A stretch of DNA of 64,000 nt, taken from positions 34,055,206-34,119,205 of the forward strand of contig NC_135360.1 of NCBI RefSeq assembly GCF_051622035.1. The letters run 5' to 3'. Numbering within the stretch: the first letter of the stretch is position 1; every line of letters begins with the position of its first letter. This DNA comes from Arctopsyche grandis. Its lineage: Eukaryota; Arthropoda; Insecta; Trichoptera; Hydropsychidae. The translations under genes were made by a program, and so were the position numbers. The notes below the pieces were generated by a model. That model did not search any database. It worked only from the letters and a program-made list of their open reading frames with translations, and had not been told where the DNA came from. Of this stretch, positions 349 through 61,179 are shown in pieces.

Positions 349-3300
349 ATGTATTTCGAGGTTTGTATCTCCATTGCTACATAATTATCATCATCACCTT
401 CATCACCTTTTAATATATCATACCACACAGATCGACAATACTCCCGAAAACGTCAAAAGAAAACGAGTTACAAATCCAAAAGAAGAACACGCCATATTAA
501 AACTTGTACCATTCTCTCCAGCACCCATCATAACTTTCGAAAATGTACCCGTCGATACACAAGCAGTTCGAATTATACACGTATCCAATCCCAAATCGGA
601 TTCTGCAAAGGTATTCTAAATTCGATCTATATATGTACATATATATAGTCACTAAATATATTTCGTTACTATTGAGCGTTGTCCAATTTTAAGGTTTTCG
701 TATCTAAACGACCTGATGAGTTGGGTTTGAAACTGTCTTGGTACGAAAATTGTATTCCTCCAAACCAAGTCGTACCATTGGAGATATCATGGACTCCTCA
801 GAAGGCGCTTTCGCAAAGATTCACCTTACAATTCTGCGATAGTAGTAGAGGTAGATACGATGCTTTAATCGTCTGCAAGTCTATTGTAAGTATTATTTTT
901 TTATTGTTTAGAATATGTTTTATTGCGATGCGTTTATATTGTTGATGTACATATTTTCAGGTGAAGAAGGGAAGCGTTCTTGAAAAGGGTAAAGGACGGG
1001 TTGTAAAAAATGTTACAAAAAAAATTGGTGTTATTAAAAGTCCCGTACAAATTAAATCAAAATGTAAGTCGCCTAAAAGTAAATCGAATTATTTGCTCGG
1101 AGCTATTAAAAAGTCGGAAATAGATTTGAAGAAATTCAACGGTAAGTTTGAGAACGAAAATGAAACATTATTCTCGACTACAGTAACCATTGAAAATAAA
1201 TTCCAAACAAGCAGTTTTATGGAGAGCGAAATTGATTTTAATCTACGCCGTGAAACTTACTTAATACCCAACAAGCAGATATTTGCGAACAACGACTTCG
1301 AAAAGGAAAATGACTTCTTTTGCCAGCAAACACCGATGGTTCACAAAAAAAATGAGGACTACGTCAATAACGGACAAAGCCCCAGAATGTTCTTGTCGGC
1401 TATTGAAAATATGACATACACTCCTCTCAAGACGCATAATAGTAACATAAAAAAAAATAAACCTGAAAGCATTAGTTACAATTCTGGTAAGCATGATCAT
1501 CATCCAAACGACCACAAATTCAATATAGACTTGAGTATCAGTGAAATGGCCGAACTATCGTTTGAATTTCCATCACCAAATTCACTCTTCAAAGTTGTAA
1601 ATAAACCTTCACACACATTCTATCCAGGAAATGATACAACCATTTTAACCACCCCGAATTTACATGTCAATGTTAATGCTACACATTCCATAATAGACTT
1701 GAGAGATTGTAGTGGTTCATTTAAAGTTGAACCAATGGATCTTTCAAACAACAAAAAACCGACCATATTCGTAACCGATTTAAGAAATCGCATCACAAAC
1801 TTTGAAACCAATGAAATTTGTCAAACACCGAATGAAAACCACTCGCCACTATTCAACCCCAAAAGGTGCTCAACGGAAATTAAAAACCTGAAAAATCTAT
1901 TTGCTTCCGACGAAGTATACGAAACATTCGTTTGTGATGCATCTTTAAATAGCAGCATCAAGCGGCTGAGCTCGGAGACGTATATCAAAGGAGACTCTCC
2001 AATAATTCCACTGAATCCGGATAACAACGAGCACAAGCATAGCTCGCCATATACTATGGAATCGCCTCCAACGCATAATATCCATTGCTCGAGAACTTTA
2101 TTTTCAGACAATTTAAGGAATCAAAGTGACCGAATGTTCACGAGAAATACGATCAGAGACAGGAACGACTCGAGCATTGCCAAATCTATCATCGAAGCGA
2201 ACTTGTGGACTAAATCTCCGTCGCCAACTTGCACTCCACTCACTTCCATTCCCGAAGAGCCCTCTACGATACTATCTGAAACAGGGAGCTTCAATATAAG
2301 CAAAAGAATACCATTTGAAACGTTCATCTTGGACAGAACCTACGAAAAAGGTACAAATCAACCGCAACCGAGAGCCAAATGGAACAAAACTTCAGCAAAC
2401 CGAGATCTAATCATACAGAAAATAGATCACACATTCAAACTGCCTAAAGTGATATCAGAAACGCAATCGAAGAAAAAAAATATTAGAATAATGGAAAAGT
2501 CAAGTCACACGTTAGATGTGTATACAATTGCAACGACGGTCGATCCATTTCTAGCGACGACTTGCTTGTACGATGAAGAAGCCTTCGATAGACTCGAAAG
2601 CGAATTTAAAAGGTGGTTAAACTATTTATTGACGCCTCCGTCTGATTTGGACACCAAATTAGACATCGATATCGGCAAAGCGTGGATCGAAAATAGGAAC
2701 AAAGCAGTTCCAGCCGCGCCTACAAAGGAACAAGTCTCTTCAAAGTATCACACGTCTCACCGACTGGAGAGTCTTCGGAGGTCGGCCAAGACGTTGATTA
2801 AAAGCACGCACATAACCCAAGTATTCCTGAAAATCACCAGTCAAATAGAACGCAAATTATTATCCATCAGATCCGACAAAAACCTTCATTTAGATATCGG
2901 ATTGCAAAAGATCATCGTAAGATTGTTGATGTGTTACAATCCTCTCTGGTTGCGGATAGGACTTGAAGCTTTGTACGACAAAACGATTCCACTGTCGTCT
3001 AACGACGACGTGTGCGGCTTGTCGGACTTCATCGTCGACCACGTGTTCCGGGATCCGTACGTTAGCTCGAAGCACATCCTAATACAACCGTCTTACGCCG
3101 AGAGCATCAAAAAATTCACTTTGAAAAAGTTTCTGTTCCTGGTGTACTTTCTAGACCAAGCCAAACAGCAGAAGCTGATATTTCACGACCCGTGTCTGTT
3201 CTGTAGGAACGCACCCTTCAAAGAGAGTCGCCAGATCTTGATCCAATTCACTAAAGAGCTGCTTTCGGGCGTCGGCGATATTACCAAGCATCTGAGACCG

Positions 3301-6300
3301 ACCGGCTACGTAGTCTCGCACAAGCAGAGCTATTTAAACGAATTCAAATACGGCGTACGTAATCTAGCCGTTGATCTCAAAGACGGAATTAGACTCACCC
3401 GTTTGATGGAACTGATTTTAATGAAAGAGAATTTAATCAGTGGATTGAGAACGCCCGCTATATCCAGACTTCAAAAGATACACAACGTTCAAATAGCTCT
3501 AACCGCTCTGGAATCGGCCGATTTTAAAATAGTGGGTGATATCACCTCTAGGGACATTGCCGACGGGCATAGAGAGAAGACGCTGTCTTTATTGTGGCAG
3601 TTAATTCATAGATTCAGAGCACCGTTGTTTGAAAATGCTGCTATCATAATGCAAAAATGGTGGCGGCGGAAATATTTCAAAATATCCATCGAAAACAGAA
3701 TCAAAAATAGGCACATTCGAAAGTTGAATGACGCAGCCGTCGCAGTTCAAAGCTGGTGGAGAGGTATATATTATAGAAAGCAGGTATTGATTAAAAGATC
3801 GGTCGAAACTAGGGCTTGTTTAGTAATACAGAAGGCTTGGCGAATGTTTAAATGTAAATCCACTTTTATTCGAATGCAAAAGTCTGCAGTTACGATACAA
3901 AGATTCTACCGTAACCATATGCTCAATAAGGAGGCTAAGATTCAACTCATTTATTTACGACGGGTCAAATCCGCTATTGTTATACAAAGTTGGTTTAAAA
4001 AAATCCAACTGCACCGCTCGCTAAAAGCTCAAAATTCAGAACGGGAGCAATTCTTACGGCTAAAATCTACTGTGATTAAAATACAGAACATATTCCGAGC
4101 AAACTTGCTCGCTAAAAGGGACCGGAAAATTTACATTACATTGAAAACGAGCACTGTAAAAATCCAACGATATTATAGGACTTTGATCAAAACCAGAATC
4201 GTCCGGCAGCAATACCTCGAGCTAAAATCTGCAACTTGTCTAATACAGGATCGATTCCGAGCCAATATGACGATGAGAATCTGCCGGGAGGCATACGCAT
4301 CGAAACGGAATGCAGCCGTAACTTTGCAACGGTATTACCGGAATTATATAATCACAAAAAAGCACAGGGAAGACTTTCTAAGAATGCGTGCAACTGTTGT
4401 ATATTTGCAAGAGCGTTACAGAAGTAAAGTGATGATGAAAAGAATGCAAAATGCATACTCGGAACAGAAACGGAGTGCTGTTTTAATTCAACGGTGTTAC
4501 AGATCCTATCATCAGATGAGAATTGTAAGATCAGTCTATTTATCGCAAAGATCAGCCGCTGTGAAGATTCAACGATGGTTTAGAAGCTATCGTGTGATGC
4601 AGAAGGAAAAAAGTCAGTTTTTAAGTTTGAAAAGAGCCGCAGTTACAATCCAAAGGCTGTTTAGAGCTAAACTGAATATGCAAATGCAGAGATTATCTTA
4701 TGAAAATCAACGGAATGCTGCAATTAAAATACAGAACTATTACAGATCGTATTTGTTAATGAAATGTATCCGTAATGATTTCATTCGTAAACGGAATTTG
4801 ATCGTGAATATGCAGAGACGTTTCAGGGCATTGTTGGAAGCAAAGCGGAACAAGAATGCTGTAAAGATTCAACAATGGTATCGTTCCATCATCTGCATGC
4901 GGCCGATCAGATCTGATTATTTAAAACTTCGACAGGCAGTGGTCAAGTTGCAAATTAGGTTCCGGAGTAATGTGTTGATGAAAGAGCAAAGGCTTGCCTT
5001 CAGCAAATTAAAGAACGCTTGTTTATGCGTTCAAAGACGGTATAGAGCCAGGCAGCAGACAAAGTTGCAACGTCAGCGTTTCTTGGAAATCAAAAAGGCA
5101 ACGATCACTCTGCAGCAGAAATATCGGGCTTACATTTTAATGAAATTATACAGGGGACAATACTTGGAATTGAAGCGTAGTGTAGTGACAATTCAAACGA
5201 TATATAGAAATAATATGGTGTGTAAAAATGCACGGTTGCAATTTTTAACTTTGAAATCAGCTGCTGAAGTCATTCAACGGAAATACAGAGCTAATAAAAT
5301 CAAACAGATATTTTCAAATCAAAGATTAAGTGCCATCCTAATTCAAAGGTATTATAGGAATTACCGACAGATGAAATTGGTTCGAATGTCTTATCTTCAA
5401 CAAAAGACTGCAGCAACAGTCATTCAAAAGTATTACAGAGCTTACTTGGAAATGAAATCGAATCGAATATCGTATCACAGACAAAAAGATGCAGCGATTG
5501 CCATTCAAAAATATTACAGAAATTACCGTGCAATGAAATCAGTTCGGATGTTGTATCTTCAACAAAGGACTGCTGCTACAGTCATTCAAAGGTATTACAG
5601 AACTTATCGTGAAATGAAATTGGTGCAGACTTCATATCTCCAACAAAAATCTGCGGCTATTGCCATTCAAAAATATTACAGAAATTACCTTGAAATGAAA
5701 TCGGTTAGGATGTGGTATCTTCATCAAAGGACTGCGGCTACAGTCATTCAAAAGTATTACAGAGCTTACTTGGAAATGAAATCGAATCAAATATCATATC
5801 ACAGACAAAAGGCTGCAGCTATTGCCATTCAAAAATATTATAGAAATTACCTTGAAATGAAATCGGTTAGGATGTGGTATCTTCATCAAAGGACTGCGGC
5901 TACAGTTATTCAAAAGTATTATAGAACTTATCGTGAAATGAAATTGGTTCAGACTTCATATCTTCAACAAAAAACTGCGACTATAATCATTCAAAAATAT
6001 TATAGAAACTACATTGAAATGAAATCAGTTCGGATGTTGTATCTTCATCGAAGGACTGCGGCTACAGTCATTCAAAAGTATTACAGAGCTCACTTGGAAA
6101 TGAAATCGAATCAAATATCATATCACAGACAAAAGGCTGCAGCTATTGCCATTCAAAAATATTATAGAAATTACCTTGAAATGAAATCGGTTAGGATGTG
6201 GTATCTTCATCAAAGGACTGCGGCTACAGTTATTCAAAAGTATTATAGAACTTATCGTGAAATGAAATTGGTTCAGACTTCATATCTTCAACAAAAAACT

Positions 6301-9259
6301 GCGACTATAATCATTCAAAAATATTATAGAAACTACATTGAAATGAAATCAGTTCGGATGTTGTATCTTCATCGAAGGACTGCGGCTACAGTCATTCAAA
6401 AGTATTACAGAGCTCACTTGGAAATGAAATCGAATCAAATATCATATCACAGACAAAAGGCTGCAGCTATTGCCATTCAAAAATATTATAGAAATTACCT
6501 TGAAATGAAATCGGTTAGGATGTGGTATCTTCATCAAAGGACTGCGGCTACAGTTATTCAAAAGTATTATAGAACTTATCGTGAAATGAAATTGGTTCAG
6601 ACTTCATATCTTCAACAAAAAACTGCGACTATAATCATTCAAAAATATTATAGAAACTACATTGAAATGAAATCAGTTCGGATGTTGTATCTTCATAAAA
6701 GGACCGCGGCTACAGTCATTCAAAGGTATCATAGAGCTAATCATAAAATGAAATTAGTTCGGATGGCATATCTTCAACAAAAGACTGCGGCTACAGTCAT
6801 TCAAAAATATTATAGAAATTACCTTCAAATGAAATCAGTTAGGATGTTGTATCTTCATCAAAGGACTGCGGCTACAGTCATTCAAAAGTATTATAGAACT
6901 AATCGTGAAATGAAATTGGTTCGGATGTTGTACCTTCGACAAAAAGCTGCAGCTATGGTCATCCAAAAATATTATAGAACTTACTGTGAAATGAAATTGG
7001 AACGAATGTCATATCTTCAACAAAAGACTGCAGCTATCGTCATTCAAAAATACTATAGAACCTACTGTGAAATGAAATTAGATCGAATGTCATATCTTCA
7101 ACAAAAGACTGCGGCTATAGTTATTCAAAAATATTACAGAGTTTACTGTGAAATGAAATCGGTTCAAATGTCTTATCTTCAACAAAAAGCTGCCGCTATG
7201 GTAATTCAAAAATATTATAGAGCTTTCTGTGAAATGCAATCGGTTCGAATATTATATCTTCAACGAAAGACTTCGGCTTTGATTATTCAAAAGTATTATA
7301 GAAAGTATTTAATAGTAAAAAGAGAAAGGCATACTGCTTGCATTCAGAGGTATTATAGGACTTATAAAGCCGCTGTCACAATACAAACTTTCTATAGATC
7401 TTGGTTAGAGATGAAGCGCGTCCAAAATCGGTACAAGAAAATATTAGCGTCCGCTTCAATCATACAAAACTATTACAGGTCTTATTTAGAAACGAAAAAA
7501 GCAAGGGAGCGCTTCGTACAATTAAAACATAGCACTATTATAATTCAACGCCACTTCAGAAACTACAAAGCGGCTCAAACACAAAGATCGGAATACTTGA
7601 AACTGATGAGCACCGTTAGATTCATTCAAATGACATTCCGGAGCAAATCGGCCGCTACAAAATGCCGAACCGACTATCTGAACCAAAAGAGATGTGCTTC
7701 AATCATTCAAAACTACTATCGATCGTACAAAACGATGAAGCACGAACGAGAGCAGTATTTATATTTGGTAAAACAAGTGTCTGCGATTCAACGTCGCTAC
7801 CGAAGCAAACTTAGATTGAAAGCCGCCGTCGAATTGGAAAGGCAAACAGCTGCAACTACGATCCAGTCATATTTCAGAATGTACATTTGCCGAAAGAACT
7901 ATATAAGTTTGAGGAGTGCGACCATCGTGATCCAACGCGGATACAGAAGATACGTCACGGCCAAGATGACCCGAATTCAATACTTGCACGTGAAGACTTG
8001 CATCGTCACGATTCAAACCGTGATCAGAAGATGGCTGATGCGGAGACGGAGCGAACGCTACTACGAGTCGAAGATGGTCTCTCGGTGTAGGAATTGGAAG
8101 GAGTTCACGACGGCCGTCATTCGCATTCAGGTAATTGTGACGACCTGAATACAGTGACGAGTGTGATATCAATCGTTTCAATGGTTCGATTTTGATTTCA
8201 GGCTTACTGGAGAGGTTACAATCTGCGCAAGAAGCAGGGTGATGACTCCAGGATCAAGAAGTTGAGACGTAGGTGGCAGGAAGGTGCCTTAGTGTCGAAC
8301 CAGCCTACGTTGGCCGAACGGAACGACGACGCGCTCGATGTTCTGGGTCACTTCAAAGATATAGCTTCGGTCATCAGAGCTTTCAAGACCTTGGGTCAGT
8401 ACATGTACATTTACGCCACATACAAGTCTATCTATATAGGCATTTCTCCGTTCTGTGGACTTAATTGAACTTTAACTTTCAGACTTTGGCACCAGCGTGT
8501 GTCCGATGAAGTACGTCGGCGAAGCAGAGTTCATCGCACGACGATTGATCCTATACATGGGGGCAACCAACAGATCCGTTTCGACCCTCGAGACATTACA
8601 GCCCGCCTTGTACATCCTGATCAACCTCACCAGATATACTCCGACGGCGCATTCCGTCTACAAGGTACAATAATAATACACACTCGGCACGTGTTGAACG
8701 AGGCTTTCAAAGAACTTGTTGATAATTTTGTCACCGTCGTTTTCAGACGGAATACCTGAACACGCTGCTGAATCTGCTGATGCGCTGGTGCGACAAAGAC
8801 AACGTTCTATCTCGGTCGTTGTGCACGCTGATCTGGCTCTTTGGACAGTACGAAGACATCAAGAAGGTTCAGTATTCAATCTTTAAGCACACTCGTACAT
8901 TATTATATTCACGTCGTTTTTACGTGTATTTATATATGTATGTATTGCAGGATTTAACGGTGTTCCTTCAAAAGGAGGAGTCTCATAAAATCCTGTGCAA
9001 AGTCCGGTGCGCAATGGTTCGTAGGAAAAAGATGGAGAGTCGGAAGAGAAATTCCCACATAGTCAACCATACTCCGATCAAAGGCGGTCACACGCCGATG
9101 AAAAACGGCACGTCTTTCAGGAGTTTAAGTCTTCCGATGACGGAGCCCGATTACGGCATATCCAGATCGAGCAGACCGAAGATCTTCGAAGACGATGTGT
9201 ACGCCATCGATACCGTATTTTTAAAATATAACTTAACTGCGACCCCAGAAGAAAAGTGA
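349..9259 (+). CDS. asp: Abnormal spindle (Asp/ASPM), 8 exons, 2785 aa
   Basis: Asp is the microtubule-minus-end and spindle-pole protein homologous to human ASPM (MCPH5). My exon model is 349-360, 431-610, 694-885, 961-8130, 8202-8394, 8483-8664, 8747-8866 and 8951-9259. All junctions are GT-AG and the frame is kept throughout. The first exon codes only four residues (MYFE); joined to IDNTPENVKRKR it resembles the start of Drosophila Asp. Residues about 20-125 form the ASH domain (VPFSPAPIITFENVPV). A low-complexity Ser/Asn-rich linker follows. A calponin-homology region lies near 850-1022 (LKDGIRLTRLMELIL). About 57 IQ motifs (IQKYYR type) run from about 1029 to just past the exon 4/5 junction (about 2530), where calmodulin-like light chains should bind. 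The C-terminus (about 2540-2785) is helical, as in other ASPMs. The protein is longer than I recall for Drosophila Asp, mainly through the IQ array. The start in exon 1 is inferred; everything from exon 2 on is secure. Confidence 0.95.
5731..6702 (+). repeat. Three near-identical 324-bp tandem units in the asp IQ array
   Basis: The segment is exactly 3 x 324 bp. Each unit encodes four 27-residue IQ repeats (108 aa). Unit boundaries are 5731, 6055 and 6379. Reading the units against each other, unit 1 differs from unit 2 by one base (AGCTTACT against AGCTCACT) and unit 2 from unit 3 by two bases at the very end. Neighbouring IQ repeats on both sides (5340-5730 and 6703-7300) have the same 27-residue spacing but are clearly more diverged. 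This is a recent in-frame triplication inside an older array. Confidence 0.95.
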
Positions 9260-17061: not shown

Positions 17062-17460
17062 GTGATTACTAGACGGTTCGGTGATTACTAGTCAAATGTG
17101 AACCGGTCACAGGACAACCGGTCGCTCTAGATCGGTCACACGTCATCACCCGTCACACTAAAACTGGTCACACCCTAAAATTGGTCAACCAGTTTTCTCG
17201 TGACTGATTTTAGGGTGTGACCAGTTTTATGGTGTGACGGGTGATCACGTGTGACCGATCTAAAGCGACCGGTTGTCCTGTGACTAGTTTACATATGACT
17301 AGTAGTCCGTTTACCTACTAGACATAGGCGCTGTGATGTGCCAGCGCTGAAATAAATGGGATCCTTTTGTCAATTTCTATTGTTAACCTTGACAAAATTG
17401 ACAAAAGGATCCCATTTATTTCGGCGCTGGCGCATCATAGCGCCTATGTCTAGTGATTAC
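17062..17460. mobile_element. hAT-like foldback MITE, interrupted by another foldback element
   Basis: GTGATTAC at 17062-17069 and again at 17453-17460 is an 8-bp target duplication. The element begins TAGAC (17070-17074) and ends GCGCCTATGTCTA (17440-17452). The two arms (from ATAGGCGC near 17324 and to GCGCCTAT near 17447) are almost fully complementary, with BamHI-like GGATCC words in both. The first five bases are separated from the rest by the element at 17075-17315. Confidence 0.8.
17075..17315. mobile_element. Long-TIR foldback element (Mutator-like candidate), copy 1
   Basis: The left end is GGTTCGGTGATTACTAGTCA. The right end, reversed, is GGTAAACGGACTACTAGTCA. The two arms of about 110 bp are complementary over nearly their whole length (ACCGGTCACAGGACAACCGG and so on), leaving a small loop. 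It is flanked by TACTAGAC on both sides (17067-17074 and 17316-17323), an 8-bp target duplication. Long TIRs with 8-9 bp duplications suggest a nonautonomous Mutator-like element; no transposase is present. Confidence 0.75.
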
Positions 17461-22463: not shown

Positions 22464-23130
22464 TTTAAATGCTTTTTATTATTACGAAATTATGTTCACA
22501 ATACAACTTATATCTATTTTAATAGCTACTGATCTACTGATCACTTTCTATTTTACAATTTATTTTAATTTGGTTAGTAATCATAGTATTATATTTTTGT
22601 AATGTTAATCTACAGCATAATAGGAAAAAGACCTCAAAACCTATTTACAATCCTTATAAATGTTCATAATACATCTAATACATAATATTAATTAAAGACT
22701 CTCTAAAGTCGATGACCTAAAGCAGATTGTGTTTAGGTAATCTGTGTTTATACATTGTTGTAATCACCGAGACTCTTCACAAGCGTGTAAGTATGGTTAT
22801 TAGTGATTCTGTCATAGAATCTACTGGTTAGTTTGTTAGTAATGTCTGTAACAAACGGAATATTATATATGGCATGCAGTTTTTTCAAGTTAGTATGTAT
22901 ATATATGAGTGTATTATAAATTATTTTTAGGGATTTATTTTGTATTACTTGGAGCTTGGAAAGATTAGTATTCGAGGCGTTATTCCATACAGGTGAAGCA
23001 TAGGTTAATAATGGTAATATGAGCGCGCGATATAATTTTATTTTATTTTGAGTTGATAAAGAACTATGGCGATTAAATATTGGATATATTGAGGATATAC
23101 CCCGCAAATAAAATAATTCGTTTGCTCCTA
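22464..23130 (-). mobile_element. Jockey-like non-LTR retrotransposon, 5'-truncated, with RT C-terminus
   Basis: From 23107 to 22748 the minus strand encodes the end of a reverse transcriptase: MRGISSIYPIFNRH, then KLYRALILPLLTYASPVWNN and NLSKLQVIQNKSLKII. This is the ...LLYKALIRPILTYG..W...S....KLQ..QN..LR.I block of Jockey-clade elements. It ends at SLGDYNNV. A 3' UTR of about 280 bp leads to the shared terminus. The 119-codon frame is open, so this copy is relatively young. The rest of the polymerase is missing. Confidence 0.85.
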
Positions 23131-26719: not shown

Positions 26720-27172
26720 TAGAAAGCATAAGCCAAGTTCAGATCTGAAAATCCCTTCTGGAGAAAGTCTGGAATGGCAACCAGTAATAAAATAATTACG
26801 AGTAACGTTCGATAAAATAATGAGATGGGCCCCTCAAATCCAAGCAGCGAAAAGCAAGGCGATGCGTGGTATATCCTCAATATACCCAATATTTAATCGC
26901 CATAATTCTTTAACAACTCAAAATAAACTAAAATTATATCGCGCGCTCATATTACCGTTATTAACCTATGCTGCACATGTATGGAATAACGCCTCTCATA
27001 CTAACCTTTCCAAGCTCCAATTAATACAAAATAAATCCCTTATAAAATAATTTATAACCCACCTAATTAATACCCATGTTTACTAACCTGAAAAAACTGC
27101 ATGCCATAAATAATATTCCGTTAGTCACAGACATTTCTAACAAACTAACCGGTAGATTCTATGACATAATCA

Positions 27173-27747
27173 CTAATAACTAGTCACCGGAGCCTGAGGG
27201 GGCCGTGTATTGTTCAAAGGTTGTAAATGCATTGTTAAAGGTTTGCCGAACAATGGATTGCACTGTGACTATCCTACCTCTACTAATAACTAGACACCGG
27301 ACCCAGAAGGTGCCGCGTATTGTTCAAAGGTTGTAAATGGATTGTTAAAGTTTTGCTGAACCTTTTTTACAAAGGATTTACAACAATGGATAGCACTGTG
27401 ACTACCCGGTGTCTACTAATAACTAGACACCGGATAGTCACTGTGCTTTTTCTAGGAATCGGGGCAGTTTAGTCCTATTTACAAAGCTAGAGTCCAAAAA
27501 AAAAAACGTTCGGCGAATCTTTAACAATGCAATGAACAATACACAGCACCCTCTGTGTCCGTTTTTTTCAAGACGGCACCTTGGTTATCCGGCCTTTACT
27601 AATAACTAGAGGTAGAACCGGAAGCGCGCCGTCTATTGTTCCATTATTGTAAATGCTTTGTAAAAAAGGTTCGGCAAACCTTTAACAATGCATTTACAAC
27701 ATGTGAACAATGAACAGCGCGCTCTGGGTCCGCTCTTTACTAATAAC
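27173..27747. mobile_element. Serial array of four hAT-like MITEs with five identical 8-bp target copies
   Basis: CTAATAAC occurs at 27173-27180, 27283-27290, 27416-27423, 27599-27606 and 27740-27747. Between these lie four units: 27181-27282, 27291-27415, 27424-27598 and 27607-27739. Each begins TAG; the inner ends read CTA or TTTA. Units 1 and 2 are one subfamily (TAG[TA]CACCGG..., TTGTTCAAAGGTTGTAAATG). Units 3 and 4 belong to related but different ones. None has an ORF. The host sequence (LINE reverse transcriptase tail) continues cleanly on both sides. Confidence 0.88.
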
Positions 27748-27775
27748 CACACTAACACACTTGGAAAGAGTCTCG

Positions 27776-27924
27776 GTGATTAGTAGTCACCGGACCCAGA
27801 AGGTGCCGCGTATTGTTCAAAGGTTGTAAATACATTGTTAAAGGTTTGCCGAACCTTTATTACAAAGGATTTACAACAATGGAACAATGGATAGCACTGT
27901 GACTATCCTACCTCTAGTGATTAG
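27776..27924. mobile_element. hAT-like MITE with GTGATTAG duplication
   Basis: The element at 27784-27916 starts TAGTCACCGG and ends CTACCTCTA. It is flanked by GTGATTAG at 27776-27783 and 27917-27924. The interior matches units 1 and 2 of the neighbouring array. A 19-bp remnant (27925-27943) follows before the LINE sequence resumes, possibly the trace of another insertion. Confidence 0.85.
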
Positions 27925-28061: not shown

Positions 28062-28229
28062 ATTATTAGTAGACTCCGGACCCAAAGTGCGCCGTTTATT
28101 GTTCAATTGTTGTAAATGCTTTGTTAAAGGTTCGCCGAACCTTTTTTTTGCACTCTAGCTTTGTAAATAGAGCCAAACCGCCCTGATTCCTGGAAAAAGC
28201 ACGCTCTCTATCCGTAGTCTAATTATAAG
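28062..28229. mobile_element. hAT-like MITE, third insertion in the LINE
   Basis: The element at 28070-28221 starts TAGACTCCGG and ends CCGTAGTCTA. Flanks are ATTATTAG (28062-28069) and ATTATAAG (28222-28229), one mismatch. It is the same subfamily as 42945-43109 and 58330-58481, sharing the TACTCTAGCTTTGTAAATAG-type interior. Confidence 0.8.
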
Positions 28230-28430: not shown

Positions 28431-29993
28431 CAACTGGTGTTCAGCAGTTCACCTTTTTTTGAAAATAAAATTCATACTTTTAAAACTCACGTATATAAAG
28501 GCTGGAATTATGAATCTTCTAGACATGAATAAATAGTATCGCTTGTATACCCTCTTCTGAGATTTTTTTACAATGTTCTTCACTTATATACATAAGGACA
28601 TACCCACTTGTCAAACCTTCTGTATTTAAACCACTTCATATCGTATTTTTTTTATTTATTTAAGTAACTAATGATTTTTGTGATAAGTATTTATACCTTA
28701 TTTTATTTAGCTCGGTGGTAGGAAAAATTTTGATTTCGATTCGTATTGGTCGACGATATTTCTTAGAAATCTAGAATACGTGGGATTCATACTTTGTGAT
28801 TACTAGAGGTAAGATAGTCACAGTGCTATCCACTGTTCCATTGTTGTAAATCCTTCTTAAAAAAGGTTCGGCAAACCATTAACAATGCATTTACAACCTT
28901 TGAACAATACGCGGCACCTTCTGGGTCCGGTGACTAATGATTACAGATTTGTTTTGAATTTTATACTAAACATGATTGTGAAAAAAAATATATTGCAGTA
29001 AAACTAAAGAATTGTCAAAACATTTTATTTAACTTTTATTTAATAATATAAAGTCTTTGAAAGAAATACTAACTATTATCTACTGACCCTTACGAGCGAA
29101 AAATAGTCCAACTAATCACGAAGACAAATCACCTAGTTTGTAAATAAATTCTGGAATTAAATCAGTACTCTTCGTCACGGGCATTTTAGGTTCAATAAAA
29201 TGCCGGAAAAACCATTTTGTCACGTGAAAGTTCCCCTTCTTCATCGAGGAACCTTTTTATAATACACATCAACCTTTTTAGAACGTGCATTTAAAACTCG
29301 ACCGAAAGATGTGCATTCTGGAAATATTTGCATAATAATCTGCCGCTATATTTGCAACATAGTAAACTGTTGGAATTTAAACCTGATCGTATTCAGATTT
29401 ATCATAATAATATGCAAATATGTATGAGAGCGAGCCTCTCATGAATGGATTGCAACTTATTATTATTGCGTATTACGATAGTTTAGCACAGTTTATATCC
29501 GCGACAGAAATATTGAAGCTGAAACATTTGAGCAGATAAAACATCAATATCCAGTAAAATTTAACGACGTCATTAAACGCAACGTAATAATCTTATGGCA
29601 TCGAAAACGGTTATACCGGTTACCTCAGTAAAGCGAATAATAAAAGATCGAATCGAATCAACAGAGACAAAAAGCAAACTCAAACCACCGTTTATCTGCC
29701 TTTTAGTACTGTACAATGCATCTTCAAGAGAATCTAAAACAGTAGTCGAGAATCTTTAACGTTTAGTTAAGAGTTGTCTGCTATAAAGAAATGTAAGGAA
29801 CTTATTTTGTTCTATGGACTGTTATACTTTTTGTAGACTGTTGATATTTATCTTGATTAATCAACATATAAAAAAATAAACGTGTGGTGTGCAATTTGAT
29901 AGGACAACACGTATATCATGCAATTTGAGATTAGTTGACAAAGATTTTCAATTGATGTTTTCCAATCATTGATTTACTGGATCCCAGCTTTAA
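28431..29993. other. Intergenic, one MITE, otherwise nothing recognised
   Basis: Apart from the hAT-like MITE at 28804-28936 this stretch shows no coding sequence or repeat I can name. Confidence 0.5.
28796..28944. mobile_element. hAT-like MITE, solitary copy
   Basis: The element at 28804-28936 starts TAGAGGTAAG and ends TCCGGTGACTA. Flanks are GTGATTAC (28796-28803) and ATGATTAC (28937-28944). Its sequence is the reverse complement of the unit at 27784-27916, so the same subfamily inserted in the opposite orientation. Confidence 0.8.
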
Positions 29994-41391: not shown

Positions 41392-41631
41392 GGTAAACGG
41401 ACTACTAGTCATATGTGAACCAGTCACAGGACAACCGGTCGCTCTAGATCGGTCACACGTGATCACCCGTCACACTAAAACTGGTCACAAAATTAAAAAT
41501 TGGTTGAATTTTTGGGTGTGACCAATTTTCGGGTGTGACCAGTTTTAGTGTGACGAGTGATCACGTGTGACCGATCTAGTGCGACCGGTTGTCCTGTGAC
41601 CGGTTCACATTTGACTAGTAATCATCGAACC
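41392..41631. mobile_element. Long-TIR foldback element (Mutator-like candidate), copy 2
   Basis: The ends are GGTAAACGGACTACTAGTCA on the left and, reversed, GGTTCGATGATTACTAGTCA on the right. The arms are about 110 bp and complementary. It is the same family as 17075-17315 in inverted orientation. ATAAAATTC flanks both sides (41383-41391 and 41632-41640), a 9-bp match. The right flank also begins copy 2 of a 209-bp duplication, so the duplication could be coincidental. Confidence 0.75.
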
Positions 41632-42564: not shown

Positions 42565-43440
42565 TTTAGGTTGTCTTGTTGAATACTTGCGGTTTGCTCT
42601 TGCAAGTTACAACTTGTAACAAACCCGAACTTTAATTCGGGGAAATAGCGGGATAGCAGGTATAGCTTCGATCCGCATAGAGCTCATTATTTTATGTTCT
42701 ATTATCTTTGTGACCGCCAGATGTGTTTCTTCAAAGATGTTGAGTATTGGTTGGTCATCGAAAAAATGTCCTGATGTGGGATTGGAGGTAATAACTAGAG
42801 GTCGGAATCCGAAGGGGCCGGAAACGTGCCGCCTATTGTTCAATTGTAAATGCTTTGTAAAAATGGTTCGGCAAACCTTTAACAATGCATTTACAATCTT
42901 TGAACAATAAACAGCCCCTTCTGATTCCGGGCTCTAGTAATAACTAAATGCCGGATCCACAGCCCGCCGTTTATTGCTCAATTGTTGTAAATGCTATTGT
43001 TCAATTGTTGTAAAAGGTTCGCCCAACCTTTCTTTTTGTACTCTAGCTTTATAAATATAGCCAAACCTCCCCGATTCCTGGAAAAAGCACTGTCTCTCTC
43101 CGCAGTCTAGTAATAACTAGAGGTAGGATAGTCACAGTGCTATCCATTGTTCGGCAAACCTTTAACAATGCATTTACAACCTTTGGACAAGCCCCCTCAG
43201 GCTCCGGTGACTAGTAATAACACTATATTTTCATGAATGAACTTGAAAACTTTCAGTCTCTCTTGTCGTCTGGTCCTGTTCAGAACTAAACGTTTGGTTT
43301 TCTTTCTGTTTTTCTGGTTAATCTTTATTTTCTACACTATTATACCCCGATTTATATAAATGCTGATAAAATTAAAGAGCAGCCGATTTAAGTTTGCACA
43401 CAAGCGGCTGAACTCTTGGGTGCGGTCCTGCAGTTATTGA
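42565..43440 (+). repeat. Unclassified interspersed repeat, copy 2 (plus), with MITE cluster
   Basis: It aligns in order with the reverse complement of 25160-25665 once the MITE cluster 42796-43213 and one flanking target copy are removed. It ends near the block TGCTGATAAAATTAAAGAGC and CACACAAGCGGCTGAACTC. Its class is unknown. Confidence 0.7.
42788..43221. mobile_element. Serial array of three hAT-like MITEs with four identical 8-bp target copies
   Basis: GTAATAAC occurs at 42788-42795, 42937-42944, 43110-43117 and 43214-43221. The units are 42796-42936 (TAGAGG...GCTCTA), 42945-43109 (TAAATGCCGG...GTCTA) and 43118-43213 (TAGAGGTAGG...GTGACTA). The middle unit is of the subfamily at 28070 and 58330 and contains an internal duplication of ATTGTTCAATTGTTGTAAA. 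All are noncoding. Confidence 0.88.
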
Positions 43441-49492: not shown

Positions 49493-51360
49493 TTCATTAA
49501 ATACATGTTCAAATGCATTATTGTGGTCAAGCCTTTTTGTAAACACATTGATGTTAAACGAACTATATGATTTCAAAATTGTAAAAAAATCCAGCTTAAG
49601 TTTATATTAGCCGTAATTATGATCGACACATTGAGATGATTATATCTCAGAAAAATACTAGTCATTAAAAGTAAATGTCACATACTCACATACTATATTC
49701 TTTGTCAAATAAATTCAATAGTTTCTGCATTTCCTAAAGTTTTCGTTTGATCTATGTTATCTCGTTATCTGTTTGATCATGAAAGTTACCCCGCATATAA
49801 GGCTATTATGTATATTCCAGGTACTAAATTTGAACCAAATTTATCATCTCTTGCTTTTCTACAAAGGTTGGTGACTACCAGATCTAACTGCTCCTCTGTT
49901 TAATGATTTAGTGTTGCCATATCATTATTTTTGGTAATGCTTTTCTCTTCTTCCCTGCTCTTTCTCTCGGAAAAGTTGATAATTGTGTATTGTATTACCC
50001 ACAGTACTACAATTCTACTAATTCTACTTTTACATATTTTTCTATGTGTTGGAAAACTCTTTTTATAATTTGCTCATCCAGGAGACATTTCAATCAAAAT
50101 TCAAGAGCGGATTAATGTACCCTAACATCTTGGTAAATGAACTGAAGTATGCATTTCCAAATATGTAGTCATTTAGTGATTTTTAGCGACGCATCGTTTA
50201 TTTTTCGAGTAGGCGATTGGTACCCAAAGGGTTATTGTTGTCGTAACGGTTTTTCTTTCGGCATTTTCCATATTCACCGTTTCGTTTGGTCGCCGTGTCA
50301 GCTTCAACACTCCTAGTGTCGATCAGATTACTACTTCCGGTTGAACGTAGAGAGAAGAGGAAAGGAGGAGAACTGGTTCGTGAATAATTTTCAACTCAAA
50401 TACAATACATGTATAATGCGGTACAAATTGTTCATCGAATCTCGAAGGTTTTCAAGGCGAGCTTTCAAGTGTTGTTTTTTTTCTTCACATTAGGTACCCA
50501 TTATGAAGATGCTATTCTGTACGGATCTCAAGCAAAAGACAGGATATGGGCGTAGATTATATGAATTCAATACATATTTTGAATCGAAACTCGTTCGTTG
50601 GATTGCGCAAAAAATAAAACTTCAATTCAATGTATGAGAAATTTGCTTGCTGTATTATATTATATTATGTATTAGGTAGGAGACTCCCTTCTCTCGTCCA
50701 CTTTGTATTATAATACATACATGCATATTTGAACTTGTACATGATATTATGTATATTTGAGAATAAATTTGCAGTCCAGTACAGTGATATGGATACATCT
50801 ATGTATGTGTACGAGAATACGAGAAGAAACAAGAAGGCAAAGAAAGCATGGGCGTCTGAAGCAGAGAAACTAACGGTGGTGAATTATCCGTTATATTCGC
50901 AGATTTTGCAATCTGGTCGCTATTCAACCATTCGCAAATCGTTTCGTCAATTATACGTATTTTAGTTTACACTTTAAATTGAATTTGTATACGAAATGCC
51001 TCAAACTTGAGAATTGGATTATTGATAGTACCCACCACCACATTGTTATTTCAATTTAAGGACGGAATTGATATTCAAATCCTTCTCCTGTTCTGATGAG
51101 ATTTGTCGAAAAACTTGTCTTGTGAGGTATCTGTCTTGATATCCCACAAGTCTACTTATGACTAGTAACCATAGATGTAGTTACCATGAGAGTTATATTT
51201 CTTGACTCTTTTTCTGAAAGTAGAGTCAAGAAATGGAACTTTACCCCCAGCTCCTCCCCCTTCTCTTCGACCATGATCATTCGTGCTCTTTCAAAATCAC
51301 TTCTCATATCCAAAGGGTTTAAACCAGTGGCGATTCATCTTATCATTAACATATATACAG
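49493..51360. other. Intergenic, no gene recognised
   Basis: No gene, RNA or repeat boundary could be supported. Confidence 0.45.
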
Positions 51361-58080: not shown

Positions 58081-58154
58081 CCAGTTTTTACAGAAACCAT
58101 CTCGGCACACACACAATAACTCATGTACCATCTGTTGTTTCAATAAAAATTATA

Positions 58155-58850
58155 GCAAATCGGCGGTAGAGTTTCCATTTCCCAAGAAAAATGGTTAACT
58201 ATTGTCAATTACTATTGTCCTACAAAGCTAGAGAGCAAAAAAAAGGCTGACAACAGAAATTGACAATAGTGAACCCATGTTTTTGTCCAAATAGAAACCG
58301 ACCGCCTATCCGTAGTCATAACTTATGACTAGTGGCCGGACCCGCAGCGCGTCGTTTATTGTTCAATTGTTGTAAATGCTTTGTTAAAGATTCGCCGAAC
58401 CTTTTTTTTGTACTCTAGCTTTGTAAATAGAGCCAAACCGCCCCGATTCCTGGAAAAAGCACGGTCTGTATCCGTAGTCTACTTATGACTATAGCCCGGC
58501 GCGACCCTGCGCCCCATTGTCGATTTCTATAGTGAACCATCTTTTTTGCTCTCTAACTTTGTAGTTTGCCCTCTTTCCTGGAAAACACCGTCCTGCGCCT
58601 ATCTCTAATTATGACTATGAATAAGGGACGGCGGCCGGTTTCTATTTGGACAAAAATAGGGTTTACTATTGTCAATTTCTAATGTCAATCTTTTTTTTGC
58701 TCTCTAACTTTATACGAAAATAGTAATTGACAATAGTCAACCCTCTTTCCTGGGAAATGGACACGCAACCGCCGAACACTAGTTATGAGTAGACTTCGGC
58801 GGATGAGCGTATGAACTATTGTCAATTTCTATTGTCAACCATTTATTTAA
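58155..58850. mobile_element. Serial array of hAT-like MITEs with related 8-bp separators
   Basis: CTTATGAC is at 58322-58329 and 58482-58489, ATTATGAC at 58608-58615 and GTTATGAG at 58782-58789. Units between them are 58330-58481 (TAGTGGCCGG...GTAGTCTA), 58490-58607 (TATAGCCCGG...CTCTA) and 58616-58781 (TATGAATAAGGG...ACACTA). A unit before (to about 58320) and one after (from 58790, TAGACTTCGG) lack clear outer ends. Interiors share CTATTGTCAATTTCTATTGTCAA and TGCTCTCTAACTTTGTA words. The separators have drifted, so this array is older than those at 27173 and 42788. Confidence 0.75.
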
Positions 58851-61179
58851 CTCTCCTGCTTTCTCGGACAATGAAGGTCTATTGTTATTTCATGGCGGCA
58901 ACTCGACCGCCTATCTCGAGTTTCTGACTCCTGTGAACTTCATAGGAGTTGTATGGGCTAGGTTGGACTTCTGTGAGCTAGCTAGGACTAGAAGATCCAC
59001 CAGTTTGGCAGATTTGGATTGCTCCAGTTCCAGGAGACGTCGTTCGGCCAGGATGCAAAGACTTGACGACACACGAAACACGACACCATCTTATCGTTTT
59101 TGTTCGCTTCTTTCGGCATGCCAACGCCAGTGGAGTTTCGTAATTTGACACTGCACTGCTTATTCAAGCGATTCTAAAATGTTCTTATCTGGACGAAAAA
59201 ACGGGTAAAAAACAAGCGCAGACTACACTAAAGCAGTTCACCTCTAAAATTTTACATTAAATATTATATGTGTATAGTATTATTATTGGTGAAGAAATAT
59301 TCATGAGCTGCGCTCCAATTGTAAAATTTAATTATTGAAATTAATTACACAGCATTTCTGCGCATATGTCGCGAAACGTCTCTGTAATTTATGTGCCGAA
59401 TATTCTAGCCGTACCATTATACATACATATGTATGTATATTTTTTGGCCGTTGTTTCTCACGGTCATTAAAATACCATAAAAATCATTGCGGAATCATTT
59501 GAATGCTTGATCTGAATGCTGAGTAGTAATTTTACTCAAATATCTTGGTACCGTGGTATCAAGTAGCATGAAATTAATTAAATGTTTTGTATGACGTTAT
59601 CTGTTGTAAAAGTAGATTTATTCAATGGTACGAATAAAGTCGGCTCATTTTCAAACGATAATCGATTATAATAAATTCCGAACAAAATGCTCCAGAAGTT
59701 TGTGTGCAGAATTTACGAATCGGATTGGAATCTCTTCTAAATGTCAAAATTGCACGAAAAATTCTAAATAAATATACAAACATAACGTTTTCTTTTGTTT
59801 ATCTAAAATTAATATAATCGAAAAGTTTTATTTTCATTACTAATTCTTCCTTTAGTATAATGTATAGACTTTTGAACGATTTGTCCACCAACAAATCGCT
59901 CAACTTTTCGAACTATTTATTGGTTGTAGACCTTTTGTAGCGAAGAACAATTTGTCTACAAACTTTTTAGCAATATTTTGACTTTTGTCCCCAAATAATA
60001 TATACTGATATTCAAAGACATTTTGGCTTTTTGAGGTCGATCGAAAGTTTTATGTTCAAAGATCGGATACACGTGGGTGCAGTATTCTTAAAATTTCTTA
60101 AAAAATCATCAGTGTTCAAAGCAAGAGGGCAAAAAAGCTTGTAAAAATATTTCCTTTCTAAAAAATTTACTAAAAATTGCATTTGAGAAAATTATAGAAA
60201 TCTTTTATTTGACAAAAGATTCTTGGAATCAATCTTGTCTCTCGATAAATCATTCCTAGGGTCGGTCATAGCGTCGCTTGCTATGAAAAGTTTCATAGCC
60301 AGCTATTTATTGGTTATGAATCGCTTTGTGAACATGCCATCCCCCATACATATAACATGTCTTTCCATCTCAACATACATATGTATGTACATACATATAT
60401 AGTTCATATGTATGTATATAAAAACTTTTGGTGATTTTGTTCAAAACACATTTATGTACTTAATTAATGCTAAATTTACAGTCATCTTTGTTTATAATAC
60501 ATTTTCCGACAACATGAAACCTCTTTCCGTATTATATGAAAAGTAAATACATATGTATATGTACAAACATATGAATCCGTCTTTGCCTAAGTTATGCGAC
60601 TGCCTAGTTGTTATAGCAAATCTGTGACTTCAACAACTTTTTACTACACGTTTGGGTAACGCCGAGTATGTCTGCTAGTATTTAATAATAAAATACCCAT
60701 TTGAAAACATTCACAGCGCATTTAGTGAAAACTGGTTTTGCGTTTTTTGACCATTTAAATTAGGCTAAAGCTAAAAATATTCATTCTAGGAATAGATTAT
60801 ATCACTTCTCTTCCAATCTGGAAACAAAAGTTGACCTTCAAGAGTCCAATAATATGTATGTAGATCCGCCAAATATAGGTTACCCGAATAAAAGTCTTAA
60901 AAATACCTTCAACCATACAAAGGTGAAGTATTGAACATGGCAATGAGTAATAACTATCGCGACTATATGGGATATTTGATCTTCCTCTAATTTAGATTTT
61001 TATTTAATATGTCGTTTTGTCTAAACCCATACCTTGGTAAAAGACCTACGTTTCTCAAAAAGTACCTACAATAACATCAAATTTGAAAACGAGTCCACGA
61101 TTCGCAATTTAGCTGAATGATTTATCGTGACGATCTGTCGCTGATAGACTTGTAGCGACAAAATATCATCTAATATACA
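58851..61179. other. Intergenic, no gene recognised
   Basis: AT-rich with long ACAT/GTAT microsatellites (59420-59441, 60370-60415). The open frame at 58819-59148 overlaps MITE sequence. A Helitron-like CTAGTA end lies near 60682. No host exon was identified. Confidence 0.45.

Follow-up and report, generated by a model that had tools for sequence, protein, structure and literature searches.

Description

The window, meaning the whole stretch of 64,000 nucleotides of Arctopsyche grandis DNA that was analysed, contains open reading frames with IQ, CH, BRCT and thioredoxin domains and 16 MITE units on seven sites (the outer ends of the third array set by eye). Four hAT-like units form array 1 at 27173-27747, where they are separated by the 8-bp word CTAATAAC. 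The word stands on the plus strand at 27173-27180 (copy 1, outer left), 27283-27290 (copy 2), 27416-27423 (copy 3), 27599-27606 (copy 4) and 27740-27747 (copy 5, outer right), and all five copies are letter-identical. Between them lie E1 (27181-27282, plus strand, 102 bp, TAGTCACCGG ... CCTACCTCTA), E2 (27291-27415, plus strand, 125 bp, TAGACACCGG ... CCGGTGTCTA), E3 (27424-27598, plus strand, 175 bp, of another subfamily) and E4 (27607-27739, 133 bp, placed on the minus strand from the core common to it and E1). All four start with TAG; E1 and E2 end in CTA and E3 and E4 in TTA, and the inverted ends are short and imperfect. This architecture, observed directly, bears out the preliminary description, in which five copies of the word bracketed four hAT-like MITEs. 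A frame of 2,400 aa at 946-8148, which we take to be ASPM-like, has IQ motifs and a CH domain, and the IQ portion consists of an internal tandem repeat (81/162/324 bp).

As a word, CTAATAAC is no rarity in the window (six copies against 3.2 expected); what matters is how it is spaced between the units. None of 200 first-order Markov sequences held any single nTnATnAn 8-mer five times within 600 bp (the maximum, four, occurred in 2 of 200), and chance does not account for the separator spacing.

The nearest relatives of the four units all lie outside array 1: A2c for E1 (92%), E5 for E2 (88%), A3b for E3 (84%) and A2a for E4 (85%), the last two being the nearest within the window. By this comparison E1 to E4 are different subfamilies, and each unit of the second array is likewise nearest to a unit outside that array. 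Tandem amplification, by replication slippage or by unequal crossing-over between the 8-bp repeats, is therefore excluded for arrays 1 and 2, and the earlier argument that units of different subfamilies do not result from simple tandem amplification holds. Elsewhere one locus has three like units in a row (L068) and another two that are near-identical by eye (L052), and slippage or crossing-over steps can extend an array. As a rival to serial insertion, tandem amplification is very improbable.

The right end of E2 and the left end of E3 are alike in 22 of 24 letters across their separator (27392-27447), a closer match than either shows to any of the other window ends that were compared. Homogenisation of terminal inverted repeats (TIRs) across the separator was rejected as a general rule, since the mean likeness over nine junctions (13.6) is about that over 344 end pairs from different loci (12.4).

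Two arrays in the window go beyond the preliminary description. Array 2 (42788-43221, plus strand) has units of 141, 165 and 96 bp between four copies of GTAATAAC at 42788, 42937, 43110 and 43214. Array 3 (58153-58918, plus strand) is older and has five units; its separators are of the NTTATGAN type (CTTATGAC at 58322, CTTATGAC at 58482, ATTATGAC at 58608 and GTTATGAG at 58782), and the outer ends of its first and last units were placed by eye, no matching outer word being found there. Solitary units with target site duplications (TSDs) are E5 (27784-27916, plus strand; GTGATTAG at 27776 and 27917), E6 (28070-28221, plus strand; ATTATTAG / ATTATAAG), E7 (28804-28936, minus strand; GTGATTAC / ATGATTAC) and E9 (17062-17460, plus strand; GTGATTAC at 17062 and 17453). 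E9 is in two parts, 17070-17074 and 17319-17452, and is interrupted at 17075-17315 by a MITE assigned by eye as MULE-like. This MULE-like MITE is about 241 bp long with the TIR GGTTCGGTGATTACTAG, spans the TSD/TIR junction of the hAT-like E9 and shows an 8-bp repeat, TACTAGAC; a second copy at 41392-41631 shows a 9-bp repeat, ATAAAATTC (both repeats by eye). Its own TIR holds the hAT-like target word GTGATTAC, followed by TAG. At 51153-51164 the full junction word CTA-CTTATGAC-TAG occurs, and neither side shows a MITE by eye.

In 200,000 random placements, with either target pool, 13 insertions never fell on six or fewer sites. A self-preference weight calculated from the window only (10 or 75, depending on the target pool) was set aside because the window had been picked for its arrays.

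The flanks of array 1 are part of a repeated element, which is probably a retrotransposon. The left flank covers 27061-27172 (plus strand), and the right flank, 27748-27775 (plus strand), runs on to a second target site of the same element, occupied by E5. The translated 3' part of the repeat presumably resembles the end of a non-LTR reverse transcriptase; a Pfam scan of its 84-aa frame gave no match. Paralogues of the left-flank element lie at 22796-22895 and in L002, L006, L078 and L131. The paralogue in the window has an empty target at 22796-22803 (minus strand), where one CTAATAAC, the sixth of the window, stands between GACAGAATCA and CATACTTACAC; this too goes beyond the preliminary description. 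L006, L078 and L131 have one MITE each at the same letters. The second site, GTCTCG-GTGATTAC, was struck as well, by E5 (27776-27924) and by the unit of L002.

Empty and occupied copies of the site were counted throughout the genome. The empty site, GAATCA-CTAATAAC-CATAC, has 2,766 occurrences (none for the reversed control); GAATCA-CTAATAAC-TAR, the left border of an occupied site with a MITE-like start, has 89 (one for the reversed control). Array 1 is absent from these 89 because its flank reads ATAATCA. Forty of the 89 candidates were read and a MITE was found in 38, one of which has two units (L166). The 40 comprise 34 closed singles (5 with one changed letter in the right copy), the double, 3 singles with a damaged right flank, one unclear site and one without a MITE, the last five sites having been classed by eye. 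They fall into 19 sequence clusters, or 16 (3 of these from incomplete reads) if the unclear site, the MITE-less site and the double (L158, L161 and L166) are left out, so the same letters were struck many times independently.

First insertions thus amount to about 89 in 2,855 copies, or 3.1%, a rough figure given that an exact right flank is required by the empty pattern but not by the occupied one and that a few of these 89 lack a MITE; second insertions were found at 1 of 38 occupied sites (2.6%, interval 0.1-14%). The second use of the site occurs at about the rate of the first, so self-preference is not needed at the retroelement site; the interval allows a several-fold self-preference. 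Between them, the 2,766 empty copies and the 89 candidate occupied ones are in effect a natural replicated experiment on first- and second-hit rates at the same letters, and make a preference for self-insertion testable without a transposition assay.

Because the same site was struck in many paralogues by different kinds of unit, partners exist for an exchange in which recombination joined single insertions that different alleles, or different retroelement paralogues, carried at one site. Such a crossover would have to fall within 8 bp plus short TIRs, and arrays also occupy sites outside the retroelement; we regard this origin as very unlikely.

The genome assembly searched comprises 475.7 Mb in 189 contigs. 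The whole of array 1 matched only its own place in the window among the 40 of 3,813 candidates that were scored. Twenty further loci were fetched by their two-unit likeness to array 1 and show how arrays look, not how frequent they are. Across these 20 the separators within a locus agree to within one letter of eight, apart from L063 and from L060, which closes one unit only and is uninformative; chance words inside units were excluded from this comparison by eye. Between loci the separators differ, with 16 different words among the 20: GTGATTAC, ATTATTAG, GTGATAAC, GTTATAAC, GTCATAAG, CTAATAAC, GTTATAAG, GTAATTAC, GTAATGAG, GTTATTAC, CTTATGAC, CTTATAAG, GTTATGAG, GTTATTAT, GTGATGAC and GTAATAAG. 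This directly observed match within loci and difference between them indicates that the units most likely came singly, one by one, in agreement with the earlier proposal of repeated insertion into the previous element's target duplication.

A composite element moving as one block, with the inner CTAATAAC words as part of it, would also yield two-unit combinations like parts of array 1, and such combinations do recur; for Anopheles it has been proposed that neighbouring P copies move en bloc (PMC1562414). Most of the recurring pairs, however, have a different separator, the same as their own outer TSD: pairs of 133-140 bp and 174-178 bp units are joined by ATTATTAG in L053, GTGATAAC in L054 and GTCATAAG in L056. 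L058 combines a 102-bp with a 175-bp unit and carries the word of array 1, but its outer words too are CTAATAAC and its flanks are unlike those of array 1. The sole deviant of the 20 is L063, where an inner GTCATGAC stands between an outer GTCATAAG and CTCATAAG, two and three letters off. A block with a single outer TSD was what the preliminary description had named as contradicting its reading, and with that one exception none was seen; movement as a block is extremely improbable.

Doubled or palindromic target words with no unit between them occur at both array edges of L052, on the right of L064, on the left of L111 and in the window at 58312-58332, reading for example GTAATCA-GTGATTAC or CTTATGAC-T-CTTATGAG. 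They could be excision footprints.

The frequency of arrays was estimated in a sample seeded with a 30-letter MITE core, which has 4,273 exact matches in the genome against none for the reversed control, a high copy number as expected of a MITE. The first 100 listed matches, all on contig 1, were taken and 96 were read, so that the sample represents a single core type and a single contig end. A script recognised a unit with an 8-bp TSD, the duplication length of the hAT superfamily, at 78 of the 96 seeds (the second seed of L128 being a mis-call); 70 of these duplications are perfect and 67 fit nTnATnAn. The remaining 18 seeds, read by eye, include solitary units with damaged ends and units in arrays. 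The lengths of the units, mostly 96-178 bp, are too short for a transposase gene, again as in MITEs.

The target motif was observed directly at 61 insertions that the script left unflagged and that are called solitary here, flanks resembling unit ends being left out by construction; one of them (the first seed of L101) was placed in an array by eye, and four (in L002, L006, L078 and L131) belong to one retroelement family. Their 8-mer target, pooled over both strands and therefore symmetric by construction, is GTNATNAC, with a T frequency of 0.93 at position 2 over both strands, which fits the hAT target nTnnnnAn. Flank positions -6 to -1 hold at most 0.08 bit each. CTA or TAG was found in 1 of 122 half-flanks (odds for CTA..TAG flanks 0.41), and these flanks are if anything disfavoured at solitary sites. 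Where the TSD is clear, the two ends of a unit match in 5-9 of 10 letters, and in the window they do so in 4-20 of 24; the ends are related and often imperfect.

Arrays account for 19 of the 96 seeds, or 14 of 91 sites (15%, interval 8.7-24%; partly by eye); counting L127 and L128 as a single duplicated locus would give 13 of 90. Together with the loci of the array search these are multimers of MITEs. The count starts from 16 junction rows flagged by the script, of which L007, L073, L084 and L108 were rejected by eye as lacking a TIR, and seven seeds were added by eye (L077, the first of L101, the first of L104, L111, L114 and both of L127). In L077 the separators are of 10 nt, and in L127 the outer and inner words are reverse complements (CTTATGAC on the left, GTCATAAG as separator); like L063, both loci speak against serial insertion. 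L127 and L128 lie 7 kb apart on contig 1 and seemingly have the same unit order.

In this sample arrays are about five times commoner than the first-hit rate of 3.1% at the retroelement site (binomial p 9e-7; p 0.0015 at a doubled rate), so that simple re-use of sites that are all equally hot does not fully account for them. From the motif only, 0.7% would be expected at 17,000 copies and 2.2% at 50,000, the copy number being a guess. The excess could be explained by hot sites, local clustering or true self-preference. It is one of two observations in favour of junctions that attract insertions beyond the motif, through CTA..TAG ends or an end-bound transposase that recruits the incoming complex; the other is the junction word CTANTNATNANTAG, found at 1,402 genome places against 671 for the reversed control. 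Against attraction stand the 61 solitary sites without a CTA/TAG flank signal and the single second unit among 38 occupied retroelement sites; the contrast between 14 of 91 and 1 of 38 is weak (Fisher p 0.066), and hidden differences in hotness or in local density could yield the same excess. We regard attraction by junctions as somewhat doubtful. The preliminary description is thus supported in its serial insertion and not supported in its suggestion that the junction CTA-NTNATNAN-TAG is itself a preferred target: solitary sites show GTNATNAC without such flanks, and at the retroelement site second hits are not commoner than first ones.

The hAT dimerisation domain (PF05699) has at least 150 matches in the genome, 150 of 2,335 candidates having been scored. 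One region of contig 2 (30.8-34.4 Mb, including L042-L051) is crowded with hAT transposase frames, most of them 628 aa long. Among 20 loci read, dispersed copies of the 628-aa family on other contigs seem to end in GCCCAAGCCTA, not in the MITE end, and no autonomous partner of the MITEs was found among these loci. None of the 20 window frames scanned with Pfam (of 97 of at least 75 aa) is a hAT transposase. Scans of viral contigs gave no match, and the sole match of a general contig scan (L001) was rejected as a chance match in a bacterial contig.

Discussion

Serial insertion of separate MITEs into a regenerated 8-bp target is well supported and very probably built array 1. Each unit would be a separate cut-and-paste insertion, most likely by a transposase of hAT type that works in trans on a number of related subfamilies; the hAT label most likely applies on the grounds of the 8-bp duplication and the target motif. 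Such an enzyme would pick an 8-bp target near GTNATNAC and duplicate it, and every insertion would leave a competent target in duplicate. Elements arriving later, of whatever subfamily and in an order that we infer, could insert into these copies and double the eight letters anew, and the outcome would be a chain of different units with identical separators. The site of array 1 lies in a repeated retrotransposon-like element and was struck in many paralogues, of which empty and singly occupied copies are directly observed. The data do not require CTA/TAG ends as attractors of insertion. It is possible, and in our view rather doubtful, that MITE ends heat their own target duplication several-fold over the same 8-mer elsewhere and that arrays are self-seeding; if so, each insertion would raise the chance of the next, and mixed-family chains would grow at nucleation sites.

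MITE multimers of rice and maize were reportedly described by Jiang and Wessler in 2001. A literature search, with subscription journals mostly outside its scope, returned no title or opening of an abstract on hAT-like MITE arrays with one common 8-bp separator. In the multimers of rice and maize, as in array 1, MITEs of different families cluster; in rice 11% of MITEs are in multimers, as cited in PMC10664404, and new insertions land inside existing elements more often than next to them (PMC5907723), whereas the units here are mostly intact and have one 8-bp separator in common. The SaTar arrays of guayule, rice and sorghum are likewise modular, with intact elements of different families end to end, but they are MULE-type, have 10-bp TSDs and are joined via microsatellite DNA, not by one re-used 8-bp word (PMC5907723). 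Coral CMITE arrays differ in being piggyBac-like with TTAA targets and in having elements and spacers that are alike within an array, and replication slippage has been proposed for them (PMC2872659). At inversion breakpoints of Atlantic cod hAT-derived MITEs also stand in tandem, but there the elements themselves contain repeat units of about 167 bp (PMC12368964); the main text of that paper contains neither "TSD" nor "target site". The hobo element of Drosophila makes an 8-bp duplication at a palindromic target, GTNCGNAC, close to GTNATNAC (PMC3276498); the centre of its target is CG as against AT here. P elements also give 8-bp duplications (PMC3276498). Within the literature searched, it seems to be new that several subfamilies re-use one 8-bp word, and this is documented here by a site that is seen empty, with one unit, with two and with four. 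Clusters of MITEs are often taken as nested debris; a re-used 8-bp word gives instead a chain whose assembly can be read.
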